From: Xanthomonas sp. | Lineage (GTDB): Bacteria; Pseudomonadota; Gammaproteobacteria; Xanthomonadales; Xanthomonadaceae | Assembly: GCF_017163755.1 (NCBI RefSeq) | Contig: NZ_JAFIWC010000001.1 | Span: forward strand, 1 to 64,000 | Direction of reading: 5' to 3' | DNA length: 64,000 nucleotides | Shown: positions 38,153-40,933 of the stretch, one piece after another | Numbering within the stretch: the first letter of the stretch is position 1 | How the letters are laid out: each line of letters opens with the position of its first letter | Made by a program: the position numbers and the translations under genes | The notes under the pieces: model-generated | The model's input: the letters and a program-made list of their open reading frames with translations, nothing else | What the model was told of the DNA's origin: nothing | Databases searched by the model: none

Positions 38153-40933
38153 ATGTCCCCCGTCCGCATCACCCGCCTGTCCGGCCTGGAGCCGTTGCTG
38201 CTCACCCCCGACCTGCTGTTCGTCAACGTCGGCGAGCGCACCAACGTCACCGGCAGCGCGCAGTTCCGCAAGCTGGTCAAGGAAGAGCGCTACGAGGAAG
38301 CGGTGGAAGTGGCGCGGCAGCAGGTGGCCAGCGGCGCGCAGATCCTCGACGTCAACATGGACGAGGGCCTGATCGACTCGGAGAAGGCGATGACCCGCTT
38401 TCTCAACCTGATCATGTCCGAGCCGGACATCGCGCGCATCCCGATCATGGTCGACTCCTCCAAGTGGAGCGTGATCGAGGCCGGGCTCAAGTGCCTGCAG
38501 GGCAAGAGCGTGGTCAACTCGATCTCGCTCAAGGAAGGCGAAGCGGTGTTCGTCGAGCACGCGCGCAAGGTGCTGCGCTACGGCGCCGCCGCGGTGGTGA
38601 TGGCGTTCGACGAGCAGGGCCAGGCCGACACCTGCGCGCGCAAGGTGGAGATCTGCACCCGCGCCTACCGGATCCTCACCGAGCAGGTCGGCTTCCCGCC
38701 GGAAGACATCATCTTCGACCCGAACATCTTCGCCATCGCCACCGGCATCGAGGAGCACGACAACTACGCGGTGGACTTCATCGAGGCCACCCGCATCATC
38801 CGCAAGACGCTGCCGCACTGCCACGTGTCCGGCGGCGTGTCCAACGTGTCGTTCTCCTTCCGCGGCAACGAGACCGTGCGCCAGGCGATCCATTCGGTGT
38901 TCCTGTACCACGCGATCGCCGCCGGCATGGACATGGGCATCGTCAACGCCGGCGGCATGCCGATCTACGACGACCTGGACCCGGACCTGCGCCAGCGGGT
39001 CGAGGACGTGGTGCTGAACCGCCGCCGCGACGGCACCGAACGCCTGCTGGAGATCGCCGAGCGTTACAAGGGCAAGAAGGGCCAGAGCGGCGTGGAGGAC
39101 CTGGCCTGGCGCGACAAGCCGGTGCGCGCGCGCCTGGCGCATGCGCTGGTGCACGGCATCGACGCCTTCGTGGAGACCGACACCGAGGAGGCGCGGCAGC
39201 TGTCCGCGCGCCCGCTCGACGTGATCGAAGGCCCGCTGATGGACGGCATGAACGTGGTCGGCGACCTGTTCGGCGCCGGCAAGATGTTCCTGCCGCAGGT
39301 GGTGAAGTCGGCGCGGGTGATGAAGAAGGCGGTGGCCTACCTGCTGCCGTACATCGAGGCCGAGAAGCTGCGCACCGGCGACACCGGCAAATCCAACGGC
39401 AAGATCATCATGGCCACGGTCAAGGGCGACGTGCACGACATCGGCAAGAACATCGTCGGCGTGGTCCTGGCCTGCAACAACTTCGACGTGGTCGACCTCG
39501 GCGTGATGGTGCCCACCCAGACCATTCTCGACCGCGCCCGCGCCGAGAACGCCGACATCATCGGCCTGTCCGGGCTGATCACCCCGTCGCTGGAGGAGAT
39601 GAGCCATGTCGCCCGCGAGATGCAGCGCCAGGGCTTCTCGCTGCCGCTGCTGATCGGCGGCGCCACCACCTCGCGCGCGCACACCGCGCTGAAGATCGAC
39701 CCGCACTACGCCGCGCCCACGGTGTGGGTGAAGGACGCCTCGCGCGCGGTCGGCGTGGCGCAGTCGCTGATCTCCAAGGACCTGCGCGCCGCGTTCGTGG
39801 CCGCCAACGACGCCGACTACGCCGAGATCCGCCAGCGCCACAGGAACCGTGGCGACGCCAAGCGCCTGGTGTCGCTGGAGAAGGCGCGCGCGCAGCGCTT
39901 CGACGGCGGCTGGGACCGCTATACGCCGCCGGCGCCGAAGCAGCCCGGCCTGCACGTGTTCGACGACTACCCGCTGCCCGAACTGATCGAGCTGATCGAC
40001 TGGACCCCGTTCTTCCAGGCCTGGGAGCTGGCCGGCAGGTTCCCGGCGATCCTCAGCGACGCGGTGGTCGGCAGCCAGGCCAGCGAGCTGTACCGCGACG
40101 CGCGGGCGATGCTCAAGCGCATCGTCGACGAGAAATGGCTGACCGCCAGGGCGGTGTTCGGGCTGTGGCCGGCGAACAGCGTCGGTGATGATGTGGAGGT
40201 GGTGCTGGGGCGGGACTCGGGACTCGGGACCCGGGACTCGGAAGCGCCGGTCTTGACCGCCGAAACCGCTGCGGATGCTTCTGTCGAGTCCCGAGTCCCG
40301 AGTCCCGAGTCCCGCCACCTCCTCCACTTCCTGCGCCAACAAGTCGACAAGCCCATCGAGCGCCCGGACTTCTGCCTGGCCGACTTCATCGCGCCGAAGG
40401 CCTCGGGCAAGCAGGACTGGATCGGCGCGTTCGCGGTCACCGCCGGCATCGGCATCGAGCCGCACGTGGCGCGTTTCGAGGCCGCGCACGACGACTACAA
40501 CGCGATCCTGCTCAAGGCGCTGGCCGACCGCCTGGCCGAGGCGCTGGCCGAACGCCTGCACCAGCGCGTGCGTCGCGAGTTCTGGGGCTATGTCGACGAC
40601 GAGGCGCTGGACAACGAGGCGCTGATCGCCGAGAAGTACCGCGGCATTCGCCCTGCCCCCGGCTACCCGGCCTGTCCCGAGCACAGCGAGAAGCAGACGT
40701 TGTTCGCGCTGCTCGACGCCGGCCGCAACGCCGGCATGACGCTGACCGAGAGCTTCGCGATGCTGCCCACCGCCGCGGTGTCGGGCTACTACTTCAGCCA
40801 TCCGCAGAGCCAGTACTTCGTGGTCGGGCGGCTGACCAAGGAACAGGTCGCCGACTACGCGCGGCGCAAGGGCGTGCCGTTGCTGCAGGCCGAACGCTGG
40901 CTGGCGTCCAACCTGGACTACGACCCGGAATGA
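38153..40933 (+). CDS. metH: Methionine synthase, folate/cobalamin/activation subunit (split MetH, part 2)
   Basis: The 926 residues hold the methyltetrahydrofolate-binding domain (about 10-310, [19 protein letters not shown] and [13 protein letters not shown]), the cobalamin cap (about 310-400), the B12 domain with DVHDIG and ligand H428 ([16 protein letters not shown]), and the AdoMet-binding reactivation domain ([23 protein letters not shown]). About residues 687-720 ([14 protein letters not shown] through [11 protein letters not shown]) are encoded by a heptamer array pair and have no counterpart in E. coli MetH. The frame stays open. The start follows a short leader after part 1. No cobalamin riboswitch was noticed. 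Confidence 0.94.
40211..40314. repeat. Paired inverted heptamer arrays inside metH part 2 (site E)
   Basis: The left arm 40211-40240 and the right arm 40285-40314 are inverse complements at 29 of 30 positions, separated by 44 bp. The insertion keeps the reading frame and adds about 34 residues at a surface linker of the activation domain. Confidence 0.9.

Follow-up and report, generated by a model that had tools for sequence, protein, structure and literature searches.

G-rich heptamer repeats of the form GGGNATC have been described in Xanthomonas and Nostoc (Rehm et al., 2015; PMC4692102). According to that description, they consist of tandem 7-nt G-rich units with a preference for four units, they were screened for as (GGGANTN)n of at least 14 bp with at least one GGGAATC, 70 and 75 convergent (inverted) pairs were counted in two genomes, 89 and 93% of the repeats are intergenic and 83% occupy corresponding positions in two species (Rehm et al., 2015; PMC4692102). 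The Rickettsia palindromic elements (RPEs; Ogata et al., 2000, as described by Delihas, 2007; PMC2229807) are dispersed palindromes of ~100-150 bp found in frame in conserved enzymes, and the RPE-bearing Gmk product, the one enzyme tested in that account, is active. In the mitochondria of Nematomorpha, coding palindromes with matching arms have been reported, for which conversion of the arms, e.g., by template switching, was proposed (Mikhailov et al., 2019; PMC6649704). The main text of Rehm et al. (2015; PMC4692102) does not contain the words in-frame, methionine synthase or gene conversion, and in our searches of open-licence PMC papers, mostly by listing, we found no report of heptamer elements inside metH or of switching of their type.

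The DNA analyzed here, called the window, is a stretch of 64,000 nt from a Xanthomonas sp. genome (NZ_JAFIWC010000001.1, positions 1 to 64,000) with 70% G+C, in which metH, encoding the vitamin B12-dependent methionine synthase, is present as two genes, part 1 and part 2. The features concerned are as follows:

38153..40933, forward strand: metH part 2, host gene of the insert, with pterin-binding, B12-binding and activation domains
36941..38077, forward strand: metH part 1, homocysteine S-methyltransferase domain
40211..40240, forward strand: left arm of the insert, four G-rich heptamers (GGGACTC, GGGACTC, GGGACCC, GGGACTC), translated
40241..40284, forward strand: coding loop of the insert, 44 nt, separating the arms of the inverted pair
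40285..40314, forward strand: right arm of the insert, four reverse-orientation heptamers (GAGTCCC), translated
40190..40330, forward strand: mRNA stem-loop by fold prediction (z -9.9), in which host codons on either side take part
36887..36990, forward strand: second heptamer pair of the metH locus (GGGACCG/GGGACCC), from the sequence and relatives' loci
34507..34679, forward strand: heptamer pair between genes that brackets a terminator-like hairpin, compared in relatives
22927..23044, forward strand: heptamer pair between genes, with a different arm type and a different loop in relatives
7..260, forward strand: heptamer pair between genes at the edge of the window, from the window's own sequence

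The inverted pair at 40211..40314, reported in an earlier note on this DNA, is real: its arms are complementary at 29 of 30 positions, and the element is 104 bp long. A repeat search extends the arms to 40209-40240 and 40285-40316 (32 nt each, 97% complementary, spaced by 44 nt), Tandem Repeats Finder assigns them a period of 7 with 4.4 and 4.3 copies, and four G-tracts are found in each arm by inspection, which bears on the G-quadruplex formation ascribed to the Xanthomonas heptamers. The reading frame of metH part 2 (926 aa) is continuous through the insert, so that the repeat-derived, in-frame peptide of the earlier note is borne out. Purifying selection acts on the core of this gene (pN/pS 0.07-0.18), an indirect hint that the protein is made and active. 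The enzyme, called essential-type in the earlier note, may be dispensable if a B12-independent MetE exists here. The stable mid-gene mRNA stem is likewise upheld as a prediction, as the segment 40190-40330 is predicted to fold at -101.9 kcal/mol against a shuffle mean of -60.8 (sd 4.15; none of the 200 dinucleotide shuffles was as good), and the host codons on both sides of the insert join the predicted stem. Two particulars have to be revised. The possible slowing of ribosomes was placed between domains, but the arms of the insert encode about residues 687-721, within the Pfam activation domain (608-907), with the site about 80 residues into it. The excess was put at about 34 residues, but the linker between GDD and LRQQ has 46 residues in this MetH and 14 in short-linker relatives, i.e., 32 more, while the alignment to E. 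coli MetH (PDB 3bul, with 18 residues between DD and LRQQ) gives 28 more. A known RNA family was considered and rejected, as an Rfam search of the window at gathering score returned no RNA family match.

The insert belongs to a dispersed family. In the 5.07-Mb genome from which the window comes, 531 copies (271 + 260) of GGGACTCGGGACTC are found, with 0 + 0 for the reversed control. A sample of 864 kb (the window plus 40 stretches, about 17% of the genome) contains 86 heptamer arrays (1 in the reversed control) and 26 convergent pairs, of which 18 are intergenic, five overlap gene ends and three are inside genes, a placement that rests on our own rough gene calls. Two of these three lie no more than 12 and 64 nt from the gene end, and metH alone has its pair well inside the gene. 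Arrays of GGGACTC and of its complement have no stop codon in any of the three frames, all of which are passed through by 7-nt units, and entry of such an array into a gene would therefore cost only frame and space. At 36887-36990, the left arm lies at the end of an ArsR-type methyltransferase gene, the right arm lies in the first codons of metH part 1 and the start codon is in the loop. The window also contains a 135-bp tandem unit with the REP-like word GTCGCGACTGAAGTCGCTCCCAC at 20790-21098 (2.3 copies) and a 57-nt tandem repeat at 52428-52616 (3.3 copies, 71% matches), whose unit length is a multiple of three. The terminator-like hairpin at 34507-34679, which is bracketed by the heptamer arms, has A and T runs.

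The MetH site is shared across the genus. MetH was found in all 20 congeneric genomes (own included), and 18 of them, again including our own, carry a heptamer pair at this site; the exceptions are G001, with a short linker, and G013, with a 44-residue linker without heptamers. A strain-specific insertion, which the earlier note had left for comparison with relatives, is hence rejected. That note had also held that an insert present in all relatives with conserved non-repeat sequence would be an old part of the protein; the sharing of the site stands, the single conserved sequence does not, and an ancient fixed part of the protein is rejected because element type and loop vary among the relatives. 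With arms fitted at 28 nt, a length imposed by the script rather than measured, the loop of the pair measures 13, 25 or 43-49 nt across the 18 congeners concerned. We dropped the argument that unit counts prove a frame constraint, since the 28-nt fits were imposed and strict pattern counts mix decay with loss of units.

Element type, scored as six alleles, changes state at least 11 times among the 20 congeners and 14 times among 34 rows of a DNA tree (L123-L127 were dropped from 39 rows, and 10 of its 31 forks are open, i.e., weak). The sisters G006 and G007 are 97-100% identical in all flank windows beyond 24 nt of the insert and have different elements. G002 and G003, whose elements also differ, are 99-100% identical across 1968 nt to the left of the site and 92-98% identical to the right of it beyond 24 nt, a drop that looks like recombination beginning at the insert. 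In two genera, the AATC/AATG allele reappears within sister pairs that have good support (L115/L122 and L117/L119). The arms differ between species, yet they fit each other within species: the two arms of one element form 23.2 of 28 pairs, versus 20.4 for arms taken from different congeners (20000 permutations, p 5e-5, with a statistic that ignores relatedness). This excess is explained by copying between arms as well as by selection.

The arm type was compared with a genome-wide census, in which six two-unit heptamer patterns were counted in the 20 congeners. GGGACTC is richest in our own genome, G000 (531), G017 (388) and G019 (236; next 152), and exactly these three have ACTC in metH. The genome richest in GGGACCG (G004, 253; next 153) has ACCG in its metH, and that richest in GGGACCC (G006, 115; next 35) has ACCC. 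In G001 and G013, the six patterns together amount to only 13 and 6 copies, with none in metH; these two genomes (L106, L099, L246, L247) are 3.7 and 3.5 Mb in size and nearly devoid of heptamers, which are gone from both metH positions. The eight congeners with the AATC/AATG allele in metH do not follow the commonest pattern of their own genome, GGGATT[CG]. The pair at 36887-36990 and the MetH insert are of the same class, AC at both in G000, G017, G019, G004 and G006, AT at both in 13 congeners and absent in two, with one AT unit in the arm of G004. In several species, both arms thus are of the heptamer type common in that genome, the position is kept, and the loop is kept at two of the three loci examined in relatives: at 36887-36990 the loop with the start codon is alignable and both arms are changed, at 34507-34679 the terminator-like hairpin in the loop is kept and the arm type differs, and at 22927-23044 the loop changes along with the arms.

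Class switching was followed between pairs of genomes. A 200-kb stretch of G019 contains 13 element clusters. The five for which a position in G003 was found, among them those of metH parts 1 and 2, are of another class there without exception, with flanks that are about 93-96% identical. Five of six elements of the window were placed in G003, four differing in class and one being the same. Between G006 and G007, 16 of 17 elements were placed in the stretches around metH used for this comparison (another syntenic stretch placed 0 of 20), and class is switched only in the two metH elements, which makes the switching patchy. In G006, where GGGATT/GGGAGT and GGGACCC classes coexist in one genome (L253-L259, L293-L300), none of the 21 pairs combines arms of different classes (1000 permutations gave 11.0 agreeing pairs on average and 17 at most). 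The agreement in G000, 25 of 26 pairs, is also reached by permutation because nearly all its arms are AC; its commonest unit agrees between arms in 18 of the 26 pairs (permutation maximum 15). All arms of G007 and G003 are AT, so that class agreement is uninformative there. Base composition as the cause of heptamer type was rejected, as the G+C of the stretches is 0.682-0.699 in all six genomes, AC-type and AT-type alike.

Beyond the genus, MetH matches were found in 241 of 247 family genomes, unbroken across the linker in 63. These 63 loci, all inspected, have 23 to 55 linker residues downstream of GDD; among 28 inspected loci of the other 178, 27 have short linkers (13-20) and one has a decayed heptamer element (G108). 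By eye, the way in which element classes and labels were assigned, the long linkers contain heptamers, a PLPxGEG palindrome, a REP-like palindrome or no recognised repeat. For example, Luteimonas sp. Y-2-2-4F has heptamers at the MetH site and Stenotrophomonas humi has the PLPxGEG repeat at the same place. REP/BIME-type and PLPxGEG-type, which we take to be names of dispersed repeats of this family, are used here for motifs read from the loci. The PLPxGEG word, searched for in five of 13 carriers, has 3, 9, 9, 21 and 26 copies in their genomes (reversed control 0). The REP word, searched for in four of the five REP carriers (all but G055), has 19 and 22 copies in two of them and 0 copies in the two further REP-labelled carriers, G115 and G140, whose palindrome differs. 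Outside the family, the linker is 28-35 residues long from a GxWPA motif in the loci inspected, a few of which did not fit the motif.

Unrelated palindromes have been gained at the MetH site more than once. On a 90-row MetH protein tree built with the linker removed (L115 and L118 were dropped from 92 rows, and 32 of 86 forks are open, i.e., weak), the five linker states change 27 times, whereas 100 shuffles of the labels gave 44 changes on average and never fewer than 40. Linker states hence tend to be shared by related species, yet changes are numerous. A single clade is rejected for the 34 heptamer rows (p-AU 5e-69) and for the 12 PLPxGEG rows (p 0.0003), and not rejected for the five REP rows (p 0.052). 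These results suggest that the site has been used repeatedly by at least two, and probably three, unrelated repeat families.

Folds of the linkers were predicted in equal context. Median z is -3.85 for 36 heptamer inserts (24 below -3; rows L095 and L096 cut short), -3.8 for 13 PLPxGEG inserts (9 below -3) and -4.9 for five REP inserts (4 below -3), versus -0.55 for eight half-decayed heptamer elements (0 below -3; range -2.4 to 0.1), -0.9 for 11 long non-repeat inserts (2 below -3) and -0.8 for 38 short linkers (1 below -3; one row, L013, mis-read). This pattern suggests that the stem is brought along by fresh repeats and lost with their decay. The pN/pS values of insert and core in six groups are 0.48/0.07, 0.85/0.16, 0.47/0.16, 1.19/0.18, 0.37/0.07 and, from one pair, 0.15/0.07. 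The insert exceeds the core in all six, and the constraint on the inserted peptide is weaker than that on the MetH core; the insert value is below 1 in five of the six, and the inserts of genus g17, at 0.15 and 0.37, are more selected than neutral sequence would be.

The idea in the earlier note that the stem may slow ribosomes fares poorly, because the predicted stem strength is not kept among relatives. Maintenance of the stem by selection as a translational pause inside the activation domain could be argued from the very strong predicted fold of our own insert, from the mostly palindromic, well folding repeats found at the site and from the better match of arms within than between species. 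A third of the heptamer inserts (12 of 36) nevertheless have z above -3, the half-decayed elements fold at -2.4 to 0.1, the short and the long non-repeat linkers mostly fold like shuffles, and copying between arms would by itself produce the pairing excess. With the stem predicted to be weak or gone in many relatives and the site lying inside a domain, about 80 residues from its start, a selected ribosome pause is unlikely, and we give this reading very little credence. An adaptive role of the inserted peptide in MetH, e.g., in partner binding during reactivation, would agree with its retention in 18 of 20 congeners and with pN/pS below 1 in most groups, but it appears still less probable, and indeed barely credible, given the unrelated peptides at the site, their erosion or absence in relatives and the higher pN/pS of the insert than of the core in every group.

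A mobile element that chooses its target might keep entering the MetH site, in which case targeting rather than tolerance would account for the recurrence; occupation of the same site in distant lineages with a single origin rejected, and the fact that of the 26 sampled pairs none but that of metH lies well within a gene, speak for it. We regard it as improbable, as the short linkers show no common structure and as three unrelated repeat families at one site argue for a property of the protein. More weight is due to the reading that the swaps are mainly allele exchange, i.e., that metH segments recombining between species carry ready-made elements and that no rewriting in place is needed. The abrupt change of identity between G002 and G003 at the insert and the recurrence of the AATC/AATG allele within sister pairs in two genera fit it well. 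As the main cause it is nonetheless rather doubtful, because the metH type matches the genome-wide counts of its carrier in the case of ACTC, ACCG and ACCC, because elements outside metH switch too (three of the five placed between G019 and G003), and because arms differ around alignable loops at 36887 and 34507. Allele exchange explains part of the swaps, and conversion of the arms looks the same as re-insertion at the old site in these data.

We propose, with fair confidence, that a permissive loop of MetH recurrently hosts protein-coding palindromes and that the insert is an in-frame copy of the dispersed heptamer inverted pair of the genus. The stretch between GDD and LRQQ would be a surface loop that presumably tolerates extra residues. 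The element may have entered the ancestor of the genus and its nearest genera, have eroded in the lineages that lost heptamers, and have been exchanged between species by homologous recombination, as G002 and G003 would illustrate. New sequence may also have been written over its arms at the site, the probable route being ectopic conversion with other copies as donors, and template switching at the hairpin, by analogy with the mitochondrial palindromes, could copy between the arms and keep the two alike. Turnover would then be a mixture of allele exchange between species and overwriting of arms, and neither a translational nor a catalytic role of the insert would be needed. We put forward more tentatively, as a possibility that is on balance doubtful, that an undescribed copying process rewrites both heptamer arms in place by species, with the position and often the loop kept, and thereby rewrites an enzyme peptide and two neighbor-gene ends as a by-product, while one MetH loop serves family-wide as a shared dock for unrelated palindromes.

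This one MetH spot carries the same repeat in some relatives and quite different ones in others, and so has the look of a position where repeats land time and again and are tolerated, not of a brake built into translation. We do not regard the MetH insert as a device of translation; it shows in unusual detail how repeats can persist within a gene. Among relatives, some of them named, one stretch of a conserved enzyme is seen in an empty, a filled, a swapped and an eroded form. This set of natural cases thus lends itself to tests of how selfish repeats endure in genes and of how short repeats dispersed over a genome retain a sequence peculiar to it. For annotators, the GDD-LRQQ part of MetH is repeat-derived and uninformative for function.

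Protein-coding palindromes of Rickettsia are usually single insertions. The repeats labelled REP/BIME-type and PLPxGEG-type are palindromic, dispersed and found at the same MetH site in the same family, and are unrelated in sequence to the heptamers. The element of the window resembles the heptamers described by Rehm et al. (2015; PMC4692102) in its 7-nt G-rich tandem units, four per arm, arranged as a convergent pair, and in belonging to a family that is dispersed, convergent and mostly intergenic, as in that description. Seven of its eight units fit GGGANTN and the GGGACCC unit does not; it has GGGACTC and GGGACCC units only and no GGGAATC unit, and is therefore a variant that fails the strict screen of that paper, while GGGAATC is found at the same MetH site in several congeners (e.g., L091, L097 and L098). 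The palindromes of Nematomorpha, as presented by Mikhailov et al. (2019; PMC6649704), are similar in being inverted repeats with matching arms within coding genes, but their arms encode conserved protein regions and are not dispersed copies, whereas the MetH peptide is extra and variable. Compared by description, the RPEs (Delihas, 2007; PMC2229807) are alike in being dispersed palindromes, here of 104 bp with a long predicted stem-loop, that lie in frame in the gene of a conserved protein, the site being empty in some relatives. The MetH insert differs from them in that its arms are heptamer arrays, several unrelated families occupy one site of an enzyme and arm type is in step with the genome; the likeness is one of kind, not of descent.
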